Virus record (IMG/VR): IMGVR_UViG_3300033064_001323
Span: 1 to 51,634 of that record
DNA: 51,634 bases
Origin: a virus
Reading direction: 5' to 3' (one strand)
The position numbers were made by a program, and so were the translations under genes. Below the pieces are notes generated by a model. That model did not search any database. It saw only the letters and a program-made list of their open reading frames with translations, and was not told the origin of the DNA. This document shows, in pieces, positions 4,536-23,813 of the stretch. The first letter of the stretch is position 1, and the number at the start of each line of letters is the position of its first letter.

Positions 4536-5078
4536 TTAGATGTATTTGTACTGCTCTTTCTTTTGAAAAGGTCCAGAAGTCCAAGCATCTTGGTTTTCGG
4601 CAATCTTCATAGCCTTTAGAGGAGTAGCACCTGCTAAAAGTGCCCCAATTGCATACTTAGCACCATTACCAACTCCATAGAGACCATCGCTACGGATTCC
4701 CACTGAGAGGTCGTCTTCAACTGCAAAGAGTGTTCCGCCCACAGCGATTAAGAATTGAAAGCGGTATTCACCATCGCCATCTTCTTCAAACTTATAACCA
4801 TTGTCTATTAAACAAGTTCGTAGAGAGGGAACAACCTTTGCAATCATAAAGTGATAGAGGTCTTTAACATCTCTTTCTGTAGGAGATGGTGGGTTCCAGA
4901 TATGTTGTGCTACATCGCAAGGAAAGGCTTCTCCTGCTCCTGCAATTAAATAGTCACCGCGTCGAGAAATTTTTGCCATCTGTGGGTGGGTAAACATTCG
5001 CCCTTGACCATCTGTAGTTTGTGCATCTGAATAGATAACGCATTTATCTTTTTGCTGTAAGCCAATTATCGTTGTCAC
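4536..5078 (-). CDS. Ntn-hydrolase resembling HslV / proteasome beta subunit
   Basis: The start is set at GTG 5078, with AAGGA eight bases upstream; a longer frame to 5141 exists without such a site. The encoded protein is M-TTIIGLQQKDKCVIYSDAQ..., 180 residues. Removal of Met would expose Thr1, the nucleophile of the HslV and proteasome beta families. Asp17 (YSDAQ, counted from Thr1) is at the family position, Lys35 (MAKISRRGDYLIAGAG) matches the catalytic Lys33 after a two-residue insertion, and AGAGEA fits the oxyanion-loop Gly. It is probably a self-compartmentalising peptidase or related hydrolase. No ATPase partner such as HslU is adjacent. Whether it degrades host protein or processes virion protein cannot be told. 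Confidence 0.8.
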   Translation of the reverse strand: MTTIIGLQQKDKCVIYSDAQTTDGQGRMFTHPQMAKISRRGDYLIAGAGEAFPCDVAQHIWNPPSPTERDVKDLYHFMIAKVVPSLRTCLIDNGYKFEEDGDGEYRFQFLIAVGGTLFAVEDDLSVGIRSDGLYGVGNGAKYAIGALLAGATPLKAMKIAENQDAWTSGPFQKKEQYKYI

Positions 5079-5103
5079 AGGCGTTATCCTTAATATTGGG
5101 GTA

Positions 5104-5136
5104 AGGGGGTCAAGGAATATTCTACCCTGACCCCCT
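5104..5136 (-). other. Inverted repeat between 5159 gene and Ntn-hydrolase
   Basis: AGGGGGTCA (5104-5112) pairs with TGACCCCCT (5128-5136), a perfect 9-bp stem with a 15-base loop. There is no T run on either side, so it is a weak terminator, an attenuator, or an operator. It lies inside the optional N-terminal extension of the Ntn-hydrolase frame, which argues that this stretch is non-coding. Confidence 0.6.
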
Positions 5137-5158
5137 GACAATTAAAGGGTGGTTAGGC

Positions 5159-5664: not shown

Positions 5665-5935
5665 AGAAGTCCCTATTGTTACAAAGCAGTTATTTACTAA
5701 GTCCTATTGGAACAAGGTTAACATCATTGAGTTTTGGGCTTTCTCAACTAAGTTGTCTATTATTATTCCAGGCCTGTTGTTTGGTAAGCAGTGGTGGTGG
5801 CTCTACATATTTGCAATCGCTTCTTCTTTAGCATTGATTTTGACATCAACAATAAAAACCCTACCCACAATTATTTACTTCAATATTGCTTGGACAATAC
5901 TAGCCACAACAGCAATTGTTAAGCACTTTATTTAA
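5654..5935 (+). CDS. Small membrane protein, 93 aa
   Basis: After a basic N-terminus (MKIKEVPIVTKQLF) there are two to three hydrophobic segments at about residues 33-43, 47-64 and 70-90 (KQWWWLYIFAIASSLALIL and so on). It probably sits in the host membrane. It overlaps the zinc-ribbon gene at its start, so the two are co-translated, and its stop overlaps the stop of the convergent gene at 5932. Function is unknown. Confidence 0.78.
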   Translation: MKIKEVPIVTKQLFTKSYWNKVNIIEFWAFSTKLSIIIPGLLFGKQWWWLYIFAIASSLALILTSTIKTLPTIIYFNIAWTILATTAIVKHFI

Positions 5936-6069
5936 AATTCAATACCAAACCAAATAAAAGGTAAGTCAAGAGAAAGACCGTACCTGTCTATTGAGAAACC
6001 AATAGCAAGTCCGTTTGTTTTCCATCCCCAAGAAAACCACCAACCACCTAGTTTAAACTCGTGTCTCAT
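5932..6069 (-). CDS. Small Trp/Phe-rich protein, 45 aa
   Basis: A short gene overlapping the DUF6065 stop by four bases (ATGA). The product MRHEFKLGGWWFSWGWKTNG... ends GLSLDLPFIWFGIEF. It has five Trp and six Phe in 45 residues and a pattern of alternating beta-strands with G-F-S-I-D-R-Y-G in the middle. Similar tiny proteins occur in other phages by memory, but no function is known to me. Coupling to the halogenase cassette suggests it belongs to that unit. Confidence 0.68.
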   Translation of the reverse strand: MRHEFKLGGWWFSWGWKTNGLAIGFSIDRYGLSLDLPFIWFGIEF

Positions 6070-6785
6070 TTGTACTCCTTTTTCTGCCACCAATTATCTC
6101 GGTAAAACCCTCGAATGGTGGTGCGAGGAATTGCAGTCACTCCTTCATCTTCTTCAATGGGAGAATTAAATGATTGCCAAGGTTCTCTTTTTATAGGAAT
6201 CATTTGTAGAAAGGGCGTTCCTTTAGGAATAATTCCTTCAAAACCAATTTTCATAGAAAAAGGAATAGAACCTGAATGCCCATAAATATCTGTATCCATA
6301 ATTCCTGAAGATGTTCTGAAAGGAAGGTTATCTTGGTTTAGTGGGTGCGTGTATAGCATGCTATATCCAGGAGGAGTGATTGCTTCAAAAGCAGTATGCC
6401 AAATGTATATTCCTGGTGTAAAACCATTTGGGCTTGGCATCATCCCCGCTAATGATAGCCCTCGAGTTTTAATAATAGAAGGCCCCTTATACCCATACTC
6501 AAGCATAGGTTGATTTGGATTATCGTAAATACGAACTTCTATATCGTGAGGTGTCACAAACATATAGCCAGCCGTTAATGCATCTAACAAAGGCATACAG
6601 GACTTAGGACTTGAATTTCCAGGCTCTAATTCAGGCTTTGTACCACCACGTGTATACAAGGGCATATCTCTGTACCACGACGGAACGACTCTAGTCGAAG
6701 GAGTTGGGAAAGGGAATATTTCTTCAGGTAATCTTGGTCTACGACGAAATTCAACGGTTTTCTCTTTCGAAAGTTTTTTAAACAT
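6066..6785 (-). CDS. DUF6065-family protein, downstream copy
   Basis: The 239-residue protein matches the second DUF6065 copy at 8382-9158 through its whole length: EFRRRPRL, VPSWYRDMPLYTRGG, SPKSCMPLLDALTAGYMFVTPHDIEV, ITPPGYSMLYTHPLNQ, LPFRTSSGIMDTD, FEGIIPKGTPFLQMIPIKREPW, GFYRDNWWQKKEYK. The DUF6065 fold is not characterised to my knowledge; a cupin-like or small-molecule-binding beta fold would fit. The start has AAAGGAG just upstream and overlaps the halogenase gene by eight bases, so the two are co-expressed. A role in supplying or binding the halogenase substrate is inference from position. Confidence 0.85.
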   Translation of the reverse strand: MFKKLSKEKTVEFRRRPRLPEEIFPFPTPSTRVVPSWYRDMPLYTRGGTKPELEPGNSSPKSCMPLLDALTAGYMFVTPHDIEVRIYDNPNQPMLEYGYKGPSIIKTRGLSLAGMMPSPNGFTPGIYIWHTAFEAITPPGYSMLYTHPLNQDNLPFRTSSGIMDTDIYGHSGSIPFSMKIGFEGIIPKGTPFLQMIPIKREPWQSFNSPIEEDEGVTAIPRTTIRGFYRDNWWQKKEYK

Positions 6786-8385
6786 CTTGCTCCTTTGTGT
6801 AGAATTTTTCTTGTAAATACTGACGAAGAGTAGGTGCTTCTAAAGCATTTTTAACCCACTTGTCTTTTCTTTCTTCCCAACGAACGACAATTTCACTATT
6901 CTCTTTTCTTATGTCATTCTTTTGTTCTTTCTGTATGTTTAAAAATCTATACTCAGTAACCATGTCTAAATGTAAACCTGTTGCAATATAGGTATTTCCT
7001 CCTTGACCTTCAGGGTGATACCAAGCATGCATGTATCGAAAATTCATATCCCAAAAATAGTCTACTTTATCTACAGAAGGGAAATAAGAGTTTCCTTGTT
7101 TATCAACGTAATTCTTATTTAATAGTGCTTTCCAATAAGGGGTGTCATCCCGATGAGATAACGCGTAATGCAGAGAAACAAATTTAGCAAACCCATCAAA
7201 GGCTTTTTTAGTGCTTGTGTTGTACATATCCCTATCCCATTGGGATATTTCTCCGCGAGATAGAGTATCAATCAAATAGAAGAGAAATTCGTGAACACTA
7301 TACAAAGCATTGCTCTCTAAGGGTTCAATAAAAGCAGCAGACAAACCAATAGAAACAACATTCTTTACAAAGGTGCGTTCATACATACCGACTTTAAAAG
7401 GAACGTCATTATATTTAAAGGAGTCCACCTCTTCACGAGTGCGTGGAACAACCATCTTGTCAGACATCAAGTATTGCTTAAACTCTTCTTTAGCAGTTTC
7501 AGGGTCAACAAATTTGTCTGAATATACGTAGCCAGCACCAATCCTAGAAAACAACGGAGTATTCCAACACCAACCGTTTTGAATTGCCGTGCAATTAGTA
7601 AAGCCTTGAACCTCAGCATCAGGATTCTTATGGGGAATCTGTGCTGCCCAAGCACGGTTGTTGGGCAGTAAATCAGAGTAAGAAGTAAATGGCTCTTCTA
7701 GAGCACCACCAAGCAAAAGACTTTTAAATCCAGTACAGTCGATGTAAAGGTCAGCAACAAGAGTTTCACCTGAATCTGTGACCAACCCAGTAATACCATC
7801 TTCATCTTGAGTAATGGATACAACAGTACCTATAATATGTTCAACACCTTTTGGGACACAGTACTCATCACGAAGATAAATTCCAAATTTTGCAGCATCA
7901 AAATGATAAGCAATATCATCGTTGGGGTTAAAGTTATCAAACTCGCCATTAAGATTTTCTGAGTACTTGTCTGTTTCAAATAAAGCAGAGGCTGGAAATA
8001 AACAACGGACTAAATCCTCTACAGGAGTTTTAGGGTAAAAGTACTTTTTTAAATGCCAGTCTGCAAAAGCGTTACGTTCTCTATCTTTCATAGGGAAACC
8101 AAATGGATAATGGAATCCCCCAGAGTCTTTCTTGTAAAAGTCGTTAAACTTAATACTCATCTTAATTGTGGCATCGGTTTTTGCAAAAAAGGTTTCGTCT
8201 CTTAACCCAACGTATTGTGACCATTTTCTAATCCCACCAACAGTAGACTCTCCTACACCAATGGTAGGTATATCTTTAGACTCAATAACTTGGATTTTTT
8301 TATTTGGATAGGCTCTTACTAATGTGGAGGCTGTCATCCAACCAGAGGTTCCACCACCTACGATAACAATGGAGTCTAATTTCAT
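6778..8385 (-). CDS. Flavin-dependent halogenase (tryptophan halogenase family)
   Basis: The 535-residue protein has the FAD-binding GGGTSGW at residues 10-16, the lysine K79 (SIKF) that carries the hypohalous-acid intermediate in PrnA and RebH, and E357-S358 in FIEPLES, the same residue numbers as in RebH. The halogenase signature GWxWxIP reads GWCWNTP (271-277), with Thr in place of Ile. These enzymes use FADH2, O2 and chloride, bromide or iodide to halogenate an electron-rich ring; a reductase must come from the host. A phage iodinase of this family (VirX1) is known from cyanophage. The gene overlaps both DUF6065 genes. The substrate is unknown. Confidence 0.9.
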   Translation of the reverse strand: MKLDSIVIVGGGTSGWMTASTLVRAYPNKKIQVIESKDIPTIGVGESTVGGIRKWSQYVGLRDETFFAKTDATIKMSIKFNDFYKKDSGGFHYPFGFPMKDRERNAFADWHLKKYFYPKTPVEDLVRCLFPASALFETDKYSENLNGEFDNFNPNDDIAYHFDAAKFGIYLRDEYCVPKGVEHIIGTVVSITQDEDGITGLVTDSGETLVADLYIDCTGFKSLLLGGALEEPFTSYSDLLPNNRAWAAQIPHKNPDAEVQGFTNCTAIQNGWCWNTPLFSRIGAGYVYSDKFVDPETAKEEFKQYLMSDKMVVPRTREEVDSFKYNDVPFKVGMYERTFVKNVVSIGLSAAFIEPLESNALYSVHEFLFYLIDTLSRGEISQWDRDMYNTSTKKAFDGFAKFVSLHYALSHRDDTPYWKALLNKNYVDKQGNSYFPSVDKVDYFWDMNFRYMHAWYHPEGQGGNTYIATGLHLDMVTEYRFLNIQKEQKNDIRKENSEIVVRWEERKDKWVKNALEAPTLRQYLQEKFYTKEQDV

Positions 8386-9158
8386 TTATAAGACTTCTTC
8401 GTCCAAGCGTTGTTTCTATAAAAACCAACTCCAACAGTTGTTTGCTGTAGTGGACCCATAAGGTTTTCTATCTCAGGAGAATCGTACTTCTCCCAATTTT
8501 CACGCTTAAAAGGAAAAATCTGAATTATTGGCGTTCCTTTAGGAATGATGCCTTCAAAACCTTTTCTTAAGAAGAAGGGGATGTATCCGCCATAGCCACC
8601 ATTTTTGTCACAATCAATAATTCCGCTACTTGTAATAAAAGGTAGGTCGTAACGATTTGCAGGGTGCATAAACCAAACGCTATAACCTGGCGGGGTAATG
8701 ATTTGATTTGGCGTACTCCACGTCCACACACCTGGGTAATACCCTTCAGGTGTAGGAATATCTTTCGCCAACTCCAAGTCTCGATGTTGGATAATTGGCA
8801 TACTTGGATAAGACTGAACAATAACTGGTGCTGGTGCGTTTATTGTAATATTTGGGTCATTAAGCATTTCAACAGGGACTACTTTTTCAACAGGCTTAAC
8901 CTCTAAGTCGCAGGCAGTTACTAGCATGTAACCGCTTGTAAACCCATCCATTAATGGAACGCAGTGTTTAGCAGTTAAATTTGAGGGTTGAAGGTGTAGT
9001 TCTTTATCTCCACGTTGATACCTAGGCATATCTTTGAACCACTCAGGAACAAAGTTATACGCAGGTTGTGGGGTTAAGTAGACACGTGCGTCTAGTTCCT
9101 TTTTTAAACGAAACTCAATAGTTTTTGTTGCGGGAGACTTAATTTTGCGGAATTTCAT
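8382..9158 (-). CDS. DUF6065-family protein, upstream copy
   Basis: This 258-residue paralogue of the 6066-6785 protein shares the same block order, for example VPEWFKDMPRYQRGD, LMDGFTSGYMLVTACDLEV, ITPPGYSVWFMHPANRYDLPFITSSGIID, FEGIIPKGTPIIQIFPFKRENW and GFYRNNAWTKKSYK. It has about 20 extra residues near 87-110 (a Val/Pro-rich insertion). AAGGTGG stands just before ATG 9158. Its stop overlaps the halogenase start by four bases. Paralogues on both sides of one enzyme suggest they act as a pair on the same substrate or complex. Confidence 0.85.
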   Translation of the reverse strand: MKFRKIKSPATKTIEFRLKKELDARVYLTPQPAYNFVPEWFKDMPRYQRGDKELHLQPSNLTAKHCVPLMDGFTSGYMLVTACDLEVKPVEKVVPVEMLNDPNITINAPAPVIVQSYPSMPIIQHRDLELAKDIPTPEGYYPGVWTWSTPNQIITPPGYSVWFMHPANRYDLPFITSSGIIDCDKNGGYGGYIPFFLRKGFEGIIPKGTPIIQIFPFKRENWEKYDSPEIENLMGPLQQTTVGVGFYRNNAWTKKSYK

Positions 9159-9288
9159 TGACCACCTTCTTAGCGAGACATCTCTTACAGATTGCGTAAG
9201 TCTTCATTGTATAGGGACACGATGCTTGAATTGTATTCTTATGTTTGCAAAACACGGGTAGTAGCACTTCTTTGATTCGGGTTATCAT
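9139..9288 (-). CDS. Small Cys/His zinc-finger-like protein, 49 aa
   Basis: The frame from ATG 9288 encodes MITRIKEVLLPVFCKHKNTI and continues with SCPYT and AICKRCLAKK. Cys14, His16, Cys24, Cys34 and Cys37 can make a zinc site. It overlaps the following DUF6065 gene by 20 bases. No ribosome site precedes it, but TAGGGT lies six bases upstream, the leaderless arrangement seen at other starts. This would make it the promoter-proximal gene of the halogenase cassette. Confidence 0.62.
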   Translation of the reverse strand: MITRIKEVLLPVFCKHKNTIQASCPYTMKTYAICKRCLAKKVVNEIPQN

Positions 9289-12454: not shown

Positions 12455-13855
12455 ATGAATACAACATCAATCACAACTGGTTATGCAGTATTACTAACAT
12501 CGCAAACAGCAGAACTTGGTTACCTTCGACAACAACTAGTTGTTGCTGACATCGAACGTGGCGTAAAAGTTTGGTCACGTGTTACTAACGGCGGTCGTGG
12601 TGTATCAAACGCATGGACTGATTCAACTTATGATTCATTCACTATCAATAAGTTTGGTAATGAATTAGTTGTTGGTTCTGTTCTATCTTCACCACTTACA
12701 GCAACTGACATCAAGGACGTGTTTACTGATAACTCTGCATTCAACATGATTCAGAAGTTAACAAAACAATTCGCACTACGCGATAAAACACTTACTGGTC
12801 AATTACTAAGTGACGTTGTTGCAGACGTTGATACTTGCTTAGCAACTGACATCAATTCGCTTGTGAAGTTTCGTAGTGACGGTCGTGCAGATAAAACTGC
12901 AACTGTTAATTACAAACCAATCAACATCGCTTCTGCACCAATCAGAACTGCTTCTGTTGCTCCTGTTGCAACTGTTGTTGTTCGTGAGGACATTCCGCTT
13001 GAGATTAAAAACAAGTACGTGCCTTCACAAACTGACCCTGAAGTTGCTAATTACATTCAACGCACATTCGACGGTATAAAAGAGTTTGACATCTTCGAAC
13101 GTGCTTTGATTAACAAAGAAAACATCTTGTTAGAAGGTCATGCTGGAACTGGTAAAACAACTTCTGCAAAAGCATTCGCTTCTGCAAAAGGATTACCGTT
13201 CTACGCAATCGGAATGAACCTTGCAAGTGAACCTTCTGATTACAAAGGACAACTAGAACCGCAATCAGACGGCACACTCAAGTTTGTTTACGGTGAGTTA
13301 GCACTCGCGTTTAAATACGGTGGTGTTGTTCTTCTTGATGAACTTTCATTCATTAAAGAAGGTTGCTCTGCTGACATGCACAATGCACTTGATAAGTTGC
13401 GACAGATTACTTTGCGTGGCAACGACAATGAAGTTATTCAAGGTCATGATGAACTTCTTATCATCGGTGCATACAACGCAGGTTATCGTGGCACTCGTAA
13501 ATTAAATGAGGCGTTTGCAGATAGATTCACAACTCAATTAGTTTACGAATACGACTCGACTATTGAAAAGAAAATCATTAAGTCAAAGTCGTTACTGGAA
13601 CTTGCAAATCAAATGCGTGCAGAGTCTGTTCGTGGAGAGTATGAGACACCAATCAGTCTCAGACTTCTTAAGGGCTTTCAGTATCACGTAATCAATTACA
13701 ACTTCGACTTCGCTGTTCGTTGCTTTACTAATCACTTCAATGAAGAAGAGCGACCAAGCGTTAAGTTGTTGTTGGAGGCTTACAGCACCAACATCGCAGA
13801 AGAGTATGAAGTTGCAGTTAATACTCCTACCGTTGACAAGGGTGCAGATAATTAA
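12455..13855 (+). CDS. MoxR/CobS-like AAA+ ATPase
   Basis: The 466-residue protein has an N-terminal region of about 200 residues that is not recognised, then a MoxR-type AAA+ module: Walker A GHAGTGKTT at 228-236, Walker B VVLLDE at 291-296, and a sensor-like region near IIGAYNAGYRGTRKLNEAFADRF, where R-K/N-E-A-F-x-D-R-F is typical for this class. MoxR ATPases act as chaperones that remodel or insert cofactors into targets, working with a VWA-domain partner. The VWA protein is the next gene. A 13-bp hairpin overlaps its stop codon. Confidence 0.88.
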   Translation: MNTTSITTGYAVLLTSQTAELGYLRQQLVVADIERGVKVWSRVTNGGRGVSNAWTDSTYDSFTINKFGNELVVGSVLSSPLTATDIKDVFTDNSAFNMIQKLTKQFALRDKTLTGQLLSDVVADVDTCLATDINSLVKFRSDGRADKTATVNYKPINIASAPIRTASVAPVATVVVREDIPLEIKNKYVPSQTDPEVANYIQRTFDGIKEFDIFERALINKENILLEGHAGTGKTTSAKAFASAKGLPFYAIGMNLASEPSDYKGQLEPQSDGTLKFVYGELALAFKYGGVVLLDELSFIKEGCSADMHNALDKLRQITLRGNDNEVIQGHDELLIIGAYNAGYRGTRKLNEAFADRFTTQLVYEYDSTIEKKIIKSKSLLELANQMRAESVRGEYETPISLRLLKGFQYHVINYNFDFAVRCFTNHFNEEERPSVKLLLEAYSTNIAEEYEVAVNTPTVDKGADN

Positions 13856-13867
13856 TCTGCACCCTTG
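13837..13867 (+). other. Hairpin across the MoxR stop codon
   Basis: A perfect 13-bp stem (13837-13849 with 13855-13867) with loop AATTA includes the TAA stop. No U tract follows. It could protect the upstream message or reduce read-through. Confidence 0.7.
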
Positions 13868-13888
13868 CAACATTCTTTATAAAAAAAT

Positions 13889-13903
13889 CCGCAACAAAAA
13901 ATC
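13889..13903 (+). repeat. CCGCAACAAAAAATC element, copy 1
   Basis: The 15-base element ends 15 bases before ATG 13919. Identical copies are at 15961-15975 and 17858-17872. No promoter or ribosome-site consensus is inside it. Confidence 0.75.
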
Positions 13904-13918
13904 TACTGAGAGGCAGTC

Positions 13919-15886
13919 ATGCAACAACTAACAGCACAAGAACTACAGAACGTAAAGCGCGATAGATTACTTCGATTAGCACAAGTCTTTCAACGTGCTA
14001 ATTCCGTTATTGCACTTCGCCCAATTAAAGTGCACATCGTTAATCAACCCGACGGTGCTCCTGCTTGGTCAGGTGCTAATGACGTGTTCTTTAACGAAGC
14101 AAAGATAGGTGACAAGTTTGATACACAAACTTTGTTATCAATCCAAGGCTTGGACTTTCACGAGTTAGCACACGTTCGTTACACACCACGTAACGGTTCT
14201 GACATCTGCTTATGGGTAATTGAAAACAATTACTGGAAAGCATTCAATGCGTTAGAAGACCAACGTATTGAAACACTTATGGTTGGTAGATTCCCTTCAA
14301 CTGTTAATTGGTTGACTGCAACTGTTGCACAATTTATTCTCGATACTCCTGAAGCAATCAACAATGCGTATCCGTTGTTACGCGGTCGCAGATACTTGCC
14401 TCTTGAGATTCGTCAACTTGCACGCAAGCACTATGCAAAACAAGAAAACATAGTTGCACTTGGTGAAGTAATTGATGAATACCGTTTGCTGTTATTCCCT
14501 GACGATACAGAACGTGCAAAAGAATTAATTGCACGATTCGCAGAATTATTACAGGGCGATAATCTTGCAGACCCAAACGGTCATGAAGCAAGACCATTCC
14601 ATGGTCATGAGTCTTCTGATTCACGACCTGCACCAAAGCGTGAACAAGAGCGTGACCGTAAGAATGCTGAGAAGCAGGAAAAAGAATTAGATAAAGAAGA
14701 TACACAATCTTCTTCTGCTGATTCTGATTCTGATGATTCAGATTCTGATGAAGAAGATTCACAATCTAATTCTTCTGCAGATGATTCTGCAGATGATTCA
14801 GATACTGATTCAGATTCAAACGGTAATGGTGCTGGTGATTCAGATGATGATGATTCAGATTCAGATTCAAAAGAAGATTCTGATTCTTCTTCTGACTTTG
14901 GTGACGTTACTGTTGCTGAAGATTCTGATGATGATTCAGAGTCTGATGATTCTTATAACGCAGACAACTTAAGCCGTCATGCTGGTGCTGGTGGTAAAAG
15001 TAAAACTGGCAACTCAAAAGAAGTTACAGATACCATGGAAGAGATTATTCAATCAGTTACTGAAGACCTTATGGATAACTTAAATAAGTTATCAATGCAG
15101 GTAGTTGGTAAACCTCTTATGGGAACTGTTAATGCAGAGTCGGTATCACAGGCTGATTACCGTTCTGTGCCTGCAGGTGCAGACTTAGTAATGGTGCAAC
15201 GTTCGTTTGCTCGTGAGTTAGAAAGACTCAAGGCGAACTACGACCCTTCATGGTTAACTGAGCAACGAAGTGGAAAGTTAAATGCCAATCGTTACATGCA
15301 AGGTGCAAGTGTTCGCACTTTGTTTAACAAGTGGCAAAGTGGTCGCGATGACGTAACTGCAATCGAAGCAGTTATTCTTCTTGACCGTTCTTCTTCTATG
15401 CAAGGTCACAACGCAAAAGAAGCATACAAAAGTTTGTGGGCTATCAAACGTTCTTTAGACAAGGTGCAAGCAAGCACAACTGTTTATACGTTTGATTCAC
15501 ATACTCACTTACTTTATTCTGCAGATGAAAAAGCAGATACAACAATCAGAGACTCAGGTGCAAGTGGAACAACACAACCTGAAGTTGCAATCTTAAATGC
15601 ACAAAACATTCTTGCTAATACAGATAAGCCAATCCGCATTCTCTTCATGATTACTGACGGTGCATGGGGCGGAGACAAAGCGGAAGAGTCTGTAAGAAGA
15701 ATGAAAGAGGCAGGTGTTCTTACTTGCCAAGCACTTCTCTATCCTAATGAAGTTTCGAATGACGGATTAGAACGGTGCAGACATAACTTTGAGATTATCA
15801 AACGAATTGGTGAAGCCAAAGACATCTTGTCTCTTGGTCAATCCTTAGTGCGAACTGCAATCGCACGTCGCTTGGTATCTCAATGA
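13919..15886 (+). CDS. VWA-domain protein with N-terminal HEXXH motif, MoxR partner
   Basis: In 655 residues, three parts are visible. Residues 1-200 contain FHELAHVRYTP (HEXXH at 81-85) and ALEDQRIETL (111-120), the pair seen in CobT-like and phage metallopeptidase-type proteins. Residues about 255-350 are a Ser/Asp repeat tract (DSDSDDSDSD) encoded by GATTCAGATTCT runs. The C-terminal part is a VWA domain: MIDAS LLDRSSSM near 487 and ITDGAWGG near 578. Together with the MoxR ATPase it forms the classic ATPase-VWA pair; the metal site suggests it may also cut a peptide. Target unknown. A CCGCAACAAAAAATC element precedes it. Confidence 0.88.
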   Translation: MQQLTAQELQNVKRDRLLRLAQVFQRANSVIALRPIKVHIVNQPDGAPAWSGANDVFFNEAKIGDKFDTQTLLSIQGLDFHELAHVRYTPRNGSDICLWVIENNYWKAFNALEDQRIETLMVGRFPSTVNWLTATVAQFILDTPEAINNAYPLLRGRRYLPLEIRQLARKHYAKQENIVALGEVIDEYRLLLFPDDTERAKELIARFAELLQGDNLADPNGHEARPFHGHESSDSRPAPKREQERDRKNAEKQEKELDKEDTQSSSADSDSDDSDSDEEDSQSNSSADDSADDSDTDSDSNGNGAGDSDDDDSDSDSKEDSDSSSDFGDVTVAEDSDDDSESDDSYNADNLSRHAGAGGKSKTGNSKEVTDTMEEIIQSVTEDLMDNLNKLSMQVVGKPLMGTVNAESVSQADYRSVPAGADLVMVQRSFARELERLKANYDPSWLTEQRSGKLNANRYMQGASVRTLFNKWQSGRDDVTAIEAVILLDRSSSMQGHNAKEAYKSLWAIKRSLDKVQASTTVYTFDSHTHLLYSADEKADTTIRDSGASGTTQPEVAILNAQNILANTDKPIRILFMITDGAWGGDKAEESVRRMKEAGVLTCQALLYPNEVSNDGLERCRHNFEIIKRIGEAKDILSLGQSLVRTAIARRLVSQ

Positions 15887-22517: not shown

Positions 22518-23813
22518 ATGGCTTATGTAATTACCCGAAACAAACGGCACACAGGTTACTTCCGCAACAAAAATAATCGCGTAGTGTCTGCTGGAACGTT
22601 TGGCTCAAAAGCCAAAGCCTTATCCTCTGCAATTCTTGCAGAAGGTGGGCTGTCAGTTAATGAGTCAGAATCAAACCAAACCTTAGAAGCATACTTAGAG
22701 GATTGGTTGATTAGAACAGATGTTCGCTTGATAACTAAGAAAACCTACAAGACTTCGTTAAAGAAGTATGTCATTCCTTCTTTAGGTAATAGACAGGTCT
22801 TGTCCATAACAAAGCGTGATGTGCGTAGCCTTTTTGAGAAACTTACTCAAGAAGGAGTAAGCCCTTCCACCGTCCTCCATGTAAAGATTGCTTTAGGGTC
22901 TGCATTCCGTCCGCTTGTTCAAGATGAACAAATGGTTGCAAACCCTACGCATGGGGTGAGGGTGAAAGTGCCTCAGACTGACCCATTCATTACTTTAGAG
23001 CCTGACGACTTCAAACAAATAGTTGCCAAGTTACCTACTGACGGAGCACAGTTGTTCGCTCAGTTCTTAATTGCAACAGGTTGTCGTTTTGGAGAAGCAA
23101 CAGAATTACGAGTGAAAGACTTGAACTTTAAGTCTAAAGAAGTTTACATTCGTCGAACTGTATGTGACATAGGTAAAAAAGCAAATAATGGTTCACGCTT
23201 TTTAATAGTGCCCACAACAAAAAACAATCATAAAAGAACAGTAGTTGTTAGCACAACACTCTTAAAGACGTTAAAAGCCTTTATAGCAGATAAAAAGTTA
23301 TCTAATAATGACCTCTTATTTGGTAATCGCACCATCGAAGTTGGTAAACTAATTCATGCAGGCAGTTCTTCCATAAGAACTAACGAAACTTTTACCGTAA
23401 CAGGTAAGGTTTTCAATCATGCAACTCCTTACGCTTACAACGTGGGAAAGTGCAGATGTGACCTGTGCAAAGAAGCGATAAGGGATTATCGTAAACAATA
23501 CAGGAAGGACAAATCAAAAGGCAGAGACAGCCTTAGCCAAAGTATCGGCTCAGGTCACCTCAGTCGAACCAAGTGGAGAACCATTTGGAACGAAGCCATA
23601 GAAAAGTCAGGTATTGGTTGGTATCCAAAAACGCACGACCTTCGGCACGCCAATGCCACTCAACTATTATCGTTGGGTGTCAACGTGCATGAGGTTAAAG
23701 AACGTTTGGGTCATCAGTCAATCACAACTACGGAGCGGTATTTACACCGTATCCGTCACCAGCAGTCGAAAGCAGGGGAACTTGTGGACGAGTATCTGTT
23801 GGGAGAAAGGTGA
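22518..23813 (+). CDS. int: Tyrosine integrase with zinc-knuckle insertion
   Basis: The 431-residue protein has an arm-binding-like N-terminus (residues 1-45), a core-binding domain (about 55-145) and a catalytic domain with R190 (ATGCRFGEATEL), H373-x-x-R376 (THDLRHANA), H399 (LGHQS) and Tyr408 (TTTERYLH), so it should be active in site-specific recombination. An insertion at about 300-335 reads HATPYAYNVGKCRCDLCKEA followed by a basic helix; it is the H-x-T-P-x-x-Y ... C-R-C-x-x-C motif seen alone in many actinobacterial proteins. No att site could be identified. Confidence 0.92.
   Translation: MAYVITRNKRHTGYFRNKNNRVVSAGTFGSKAKALSSAILAEGGLSVNESESNQTLEAYLEDWLIRTDVRLITKKTYKTSLKKYVIPSLGNRQVLSITKRDVRSLFEKLTQEGVSPSTVLHVKIALGSAFRPLVQDEQMVANPTHGVRVKVPQTDPFITLEPDDFKQIVAKLPTDGAQLFAQFLIATGCRFGEATELRVKDLNFKSKEVYIRRTVCDIGKKANNGSRFLIVPTTKNNHKRTVVVSTTLLKTLKAFIADKKLSNNDLLFGNRTIEVGKLIHAGSSSIRTNETFTVTGKVFNHATPYAYNVGKCRCDLCKEAIRDYRKQYRKDKSKGRDSLSQSIGSGHLSRTKWRTIWNEAIEKSGIGWYPKTHDLRHANATQLLSLGVNVHEVKERLGHQSITTTERYLHRIRHQQSKAGELVDEYLLGER

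Follow-up and report, generated by a model that had tools for sequence, protein, structure and literature searches.

We studied a 51,634-base IMG/VR virus record (the window, i.e., the whole stretch of DNA that was analyzed) and, within it, a compact group of genes built around a halogenase. The window encodes a WhiB protein, a tyrosine integrase, a CHAP endolysin and a B12-type ribonucleotide reductase; the integrase suggests that the phage is probably temperate and, together with WhiB, leads to its assignment as a probable temperate actinophage. Next to the lysis genes, among them the CHAP endolysin, five overlapping ORFs were found in the negative strand, all of them where a preliminary description of this DNA had placed them, with overlaps of 20, 4, 8 and 28 nt. 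The last overlap corresponds to a Trp-rich ORF read from a TTG codon (53 aa, 6093-5932), and it is reduced to 4 nt, against the DUF6065 stop, if the 45-aa version starting at ATG is considered. The positive strand presents the genes of a small membrane protein (SMP) and of a zinc-ribbon-like protein. Purifying selection acts on the cassette proteins that were tested, and it is strong on the halogenase and the two DUF6065 genes: dN/dS ratios relative to the sister contig L004 were 0.03-0.06 for these three genes, the halogenase and SMP each had a value of 0.05, and the 45-aa gene ranged from 0.05 to 0.22 across sister pairs. Scanning the cassette for promoters and terminators gave signals at about chance level, and the six proteins scanned had no match among the PADLOC profiles of known anti-phage defence systems. 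Elsewhere in the window we observed an HslV-like peptidase family protein close to the lysis genes (4536-5141; phrog_1040, 2e-22) and an AAA_5 ATPase followed by a VWA-domain protein (12455-15886), resembling a MoxR/CobS-VWA pair.

Table 1 Genes of the halogenase region and the integrase, with positions given in the window
Feature	Position	Strand	Remarks
Zinc-ribbon-like protein, 69 aa	5455..5664	+	3' end shares 11 nt with the SMP start
SMP, small membrane protein, 93 aa	5654..5935	+	Predicted amphipathic helix and three TM helices; SemiSWEET/MPC-like model
Trp-rich protein, 45 aa from ATG	5932..6069	-	Accompanies DUF6065-A, not the halogenase; kept in halogenase-less L087
DUF6065/phrog_7084 protein A, 239 aa	6066..6785	-	phrog_7084 1e-31; dUTPase-like fold in the model
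Flavin-dependent halogenase, 535 aa, VirX1-like	6778..8385	-	PF04820 E 7e-102; phrog_2928 2e-135
DUF6065/phrog_7084 protein B, 258 aa	8382..9158	-	phrog_7084 8e-33; dUTPase-like fold predicted by homology to A
Cys/His-containing small protein, 49 aa	9139..9288	-	Conserved backbone, outside the swapped cassette; present in L087
Tyrosine integrase	22518-23813		Phage_integrase 3e-26

Judged from its family matches, the 535-aa protein is a flavin-dependent halogenase (FDH): the Trp_halogenase domain PF04820 was recognized with 342 bits against a cut-off of 21 (E 7.1e-102), and the closest solved relative was VirX1 (PDB 6QGM), aligned over residues 2-530 with an E value of 4.5e-90. The flavin motif GxGxxG reads GGGTSG at residue 10. 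The catalytic pair had been reported before as K79 and E357; both residues are present, the glutamate at 357 and the lysine at residue 75 of this protein, K79 being the name of the homologous position in RebH and VirX1. The Ile to Thr change noted in the GWxWxIP signature was also confirmed: the position reads GWCWNTP, with GWxWxxP kept, and 20 of 173 related viral halogenases have the same Thr, so that this variant is not unusual. Family match, flavin motif, K75 and E357 together support the earlier prediction that the enzyme is probably active. Relatives of the halogenase were found in 65 annotated phage records, mostly of cyanophages, and in 569 confirmed stretches of IMG/VR. One viral locus (L016, 1-7581) carries four halogenase-like genes together with a DUF6065 relative.

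The two genes flanking the halogenase had been described as DUF6065 paralogues. The assignment holds for both at the level of phrog_7084, whereas the Pfam profile itself, PF19541, was reached only below threshold (19.1 and 17.0 bits vs a cut-off of 26.6). Among 77 aligned relatives, all matched phrog_7084 and 27 matched PF19541 at E <= 0.01; a search for DUF6065 in one literature library gave no paper. The AF2 model of protein A (pLDDT 93.3) was compared by Foldseek with the PDB, where the top 50 matches were all dUTPases, dUTPase complexes or dCTP deaminases (best E 6.7e-4, probability 1.00), and with BFVD, where uncharacterised phage proteins came first and the annotated matches were mostly dUTPases. 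Profile alignment with hhalign pointed to the same family (E 6.7e-4), placing GIMDTD on GLIDSD and aligning the Gln of motif IV; the score of 29.3 was not equalled in any of 200 shuffles, whose mean was 12.7-12.8. The five dUTPase catalytic motifs are largely absent: what remains is the Asp position of motif III and the Gln position of motif IV. According to the model, DUF6065 thus has a dUTPase-like fold without the full dUTPase active site, a fold that protein B would share by homology to A, and dUTPase activity is not expected. A canonical dUTPase was not found elsewhere in the window with a profile of eight dUTPases. SapC-like and cupin-like substrate presenters were considered as candidates for DUF6065 and rejected, since the fold search returned dUTPases.

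To describe the distribution of these genes, each family was used as an independent query and the loci were dereplicated into groups; the co-occurrence counts given below depend on these scans (best 80 loci per query) and on contigs that are in part fragmentary. With DUF6065 as query, a halogenase was nearby in 9 of the 49 dereplicated viral groups obtained from the best 80 loci and absent from the other 40, which indicates that DUF6065 is mostly independent of the halogenase. The preliminary description had taken a predominance of DUF6065 genes without halogenases as evidence against its own reading, and this is to a large extent what was found. DUF6065 often occurs in tandem copies without a halogenase; a relative in a haloarchaeal virus lacks one and lies near thymidylate synthase (L003, 3905-4768); and the family is present in 16 of 142 alphaproteobacterial genomes, where nine neighbourhoods showed no halogenase beside it and no obvious common context. 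Adjacency of DUF6065 and halogenase was nevertheless seen in several independent viral loci. A further family of 225-258 aa is often found directly beside halogenases (L176 439-1206, L197 2835-3584, L063 5265-6008 and others); most of its members start with a VYWAP/YWS-type motif, it aligns with DUF6065 by hhalign (E 9e-4), and it is probably another family with the dUTPase fold.

A different gene, missed in the preliminary description, looks like the specific genetic partner of the halogenase. Attention was drawn to SMP by its homologues, which lie beside halogenases in L004, L086, L015, L073 and L162, yet are missing from L087 and L088, two sister phages that carry the DUF6065 pair and lack both halogenase and SMP. 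The flanks of L086 and L087 are 96-99% identical, and the two differ by an exchange of the block that runs from DUF6065-B to SMP (L086 3634-7151, L087 5180-6862). In L087 the halogenase and SMP are absent at two separate positions, with both DUF6065 genes, the 45-aa gene and the 49-aa gene kept; the zinc-ribbon-like 69-aa gene is retained in L087 and L088 despite the absence of SMP. In these sister phages the halogenase and SMP are either both there or both missing. Groups from the best 80 loci of the SMP query contained a halogenase in 32 of 36 cases and DUF6065 in 19 of 36. Within the DUF6065 query, also limited to the best 80 loci, SMP was found in 4 of the 9 groups with a halogenase vs none of the 40 without (Fisher p 6e-4). 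In the SMP-query loci the halogenase is usually immediately 5' of SMP, in the same strand and with an overlap of 10-13 nt, and SMP lies directly 3' of the halogenase, in the same strand, in 24 halogenase groups. The DUF6065-halogenase-SMP block appears, from the L086/L087 pair, as a recombination hot spot between sister phages.

The linkage is not reciprocal and is related in part to the host. With the halogenase as query (best 80 loci, dereplicated), SMP was present in 7 of 50 groups and absent from 43, and DUF6065 was present in 5 of 50. With SMP as query, at least 455 relatives were obtained from IMG/VR; no match was found in the annotated phage collection, nor in four annotated halogenase phages searched whole, which included DSL-LC01. 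On a tree of 106 halogenases the presence of SMP needs 13 changes, and testing SMP and DUF6065 as a pair of traits on the halogenase tree gave a median p of 0.375. WhiB was found in 15 of 48 SMP records vs 1 of 41 halogenase records without SMP; host type is therefore also associated, and actinophage hosts are a partial confounder of the link between SMP and the halogenase. Conversely, when 35 DUF6065 phage records were searched whole, 21 presented WhiB and only one presented SMP, the latter being a record with a halogenase, which argues that actinophage lineage alone is insufficient as an explanation. A few of the SMP-query loci hold SMP without a halogenase; in L197 and L200 its neighbours are a DUF6065 relative and a gene resembling carbamoyltransferases, and the flank contains no halogenase. 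L156 contains a fused halogenase-SMP ORF (6423-7868), which was set aside as decisive evidence: its halogenase part has an internal deletion relative to the separate genes of L162, so that the fusion may be a decayed or misassembled gene.

The SMP model (pLDDT 71.5) presents an amphipathic helix and three transmembrane helices. Its top matches in the PDB, and most of the better ones, were mitochondrial pyruvate carrier (MPC) proteins and SemiSWEET, all with Foldseek E values above 0.8, and the model superposed on SemiSWEET chains with TM scores up to 0.64/0.72 at ~2.1-2.4 A, and on MPC2 as well. With hhalign, SMP aligned with MPC at E 0.006 over 26 columns, a result not equalled in 200 shuffles, and gave no match to SemiSWEET profiles. 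In this alignment K33 of SMP, conserved in 48 of 48 sequences, falls on K49 of MPC2, a residue essential for the binding of pyruvate (PMC12007569); K33, N77 and E26 are invariant polar residues in or beside the helices. Searches against Pfam, including the MPC and SWEET families, and against NCBIfam, PADLOC and PHROG gave no match for SMP. Homology to MPC was also tried from single sequences and rejected, as only yeast Mpc2 ranked high and most MPC sequences did not rise above decoys; the resemblance is accordingly kept at the fold and profile levels. The comparisons used sequences of human MPC1 and MPC2, yeast Mpc2, SemiSWEET and E. coli dUTPase; of these, human MPC2 and one SemiSWEET were identical to PDB chains, and the dUTPase agreed at 100% with a deposited record.

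We tentatively favour the following reading, for which the chances are appreciable without being even: a VirX1-type FDH and a carrier-like SMP, acting on a small aromatic molecule, form an exchangeable, moron-like accessory module of a probable temperate actinophage. For catalysis, substrate, transport and the part of DUF6065 we infer that the FDH would take FADH2 supplied by the host, O2 and a halide, and would halogenate a small aromatic or heteroaromatic compound, either during infection or in the lysogen. SMP would work with it, most likely as a half-carrier of SemiSWEET/pyruvate-carrier-like architecture that dimerises and carries the substrate or product of the FDH across the host membrane. 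The DUF6065 proteins would be optional ligand-binding neighbours, living also without the halogenase. The halogenase cassette proposed before therefore survives as an exchangeable unit, with a gene set that had been drawn slightly wrong; the idea of five genes as one dedicated halogenation system is not supported, given that halogenase-less sister phages still carry the DUF6065 pair and the 49-aa and 45-aa genes.

SMP could instead tether the FDH to the cytoplasmic membrane as an anchor or scaffold; the substrate modified there would then be membrane-bound or part of the envelope, and no transport would occur. This is rather unlikely in our estimate: a three-helix membrane protein directly adjoining the gene of a soluble enzyme, the fused ORF of L156 and the excess of WhiB, i.e., of probable actinobacterial hosts, among SMP records are consistent with it, but the invariant K33, N77 and E26 exceed the needs of an anchor and the fusion carries the deletion mentioned above. 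Modification of proteins, e.g., tail fibres, by exchangeable post-translational modification islands composed of FDH, 2OG-Fe(II) oxygenases, GlcNAc transferases and carbamoyltransferases is unlikely too. Among the neighbours, 2OG-Fe(II) oxygenases are found most often (43 groups); PF11397 GlcNAc transferases and carbamoyltransferases also turn up repeatedly, the halogenase of DSL-LC01 adjoins collagen-repeat genes and a glycosyltransferase, and there is a weak match to QhpG, a flavin-dependent monooxygenase. Against this, the cassette of the window lies beside lysis genes, the dedicated partner, SMP, sits in the membrane and has a carrier-like fold in the model, and free small aromatics are in vitro substrates of VirX1 (PMC8407142).

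The original proposal, in which DUF6065 presents the substrate within a dedicated complex of the halogenase and the DUF6065 pair, now appears improbable. The tight overlap of the genes speaks for it, as does the finding of DUF6065 or the related family directly beside the halogenase in 25 of 91 groups of pooled loci; however, DUF6065 occurs mostly without halogenases and often in tandem by itself, the pair survives in L087 and L088, and the modelled dUTPase-like fold does not suggest a presenting role. The same fold, typical of pyrimidine-nucleotide enzymes, and the haloviral homologue near thymidylate synthase led us to entertain a last, highly improbable reading: DUF6065 would bind dUTP- or dCTP-like ligands and the FDH would act on pyrimidine nucleotides, making 5-halopyrimidines that alter phage DNA or poison host nucleotide pools.

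The fact that SMP travels with halogenases of distantly related clades suggests that the substrate or product probably meets the membrane. SMP offers a concrete handle on the natural role of viral halogenases, in the form of a two-gene system; in addition, DUF6065 can now be assigned a fold on the basis of the model, and sister phages were shown to swap the whole cassette.

Compared with known systems, DUF6065 would share with the dUTPase/dCTP deaminase superfamily the modelled fold, the GxxD of motif III and the Gln of motif IV; unlike dUTPases, it is ~240 aa long and lacks the Asp of motif I, the RS of motif II and the Tyr of motif III, with motif V outside the match. SMP resembles SemiSWEET and MPC in its modelled amphipathic helix with three transmembrane helices and in the Lys aligned with MPC2 K49, and differs from them in the absence of the PQ motif and of a significant single-sequence match. 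DSL-LC01 (OQ999401), a freshwater, WhiB-bearing actinophage (PMC10611076), likewise combines a halogenase, annotated as tryptophan 7-halogenase, with an Actinomycetia phage, but its family match is weaker (171 bits), its halogenase neighbours are those given above, and SMP had no match in that phage. VirX1 of cyanophage Syn10, according to a review the first viral FDH and the first FDH preferring iodide, and for which that review gives no natural substrate (PMC8407142), is matched by our halogenase over nearly its full length and with the same catalytic Lys and Glu. The two are distinguished by the signature, GWxWxIP in VirX1 and GWxWxTP here, by the phage, a cyanophage in one case and a probable actinophage in the other, and by the neighbourhood, the halogenase described here being accompanied by SMP and DUF6065.
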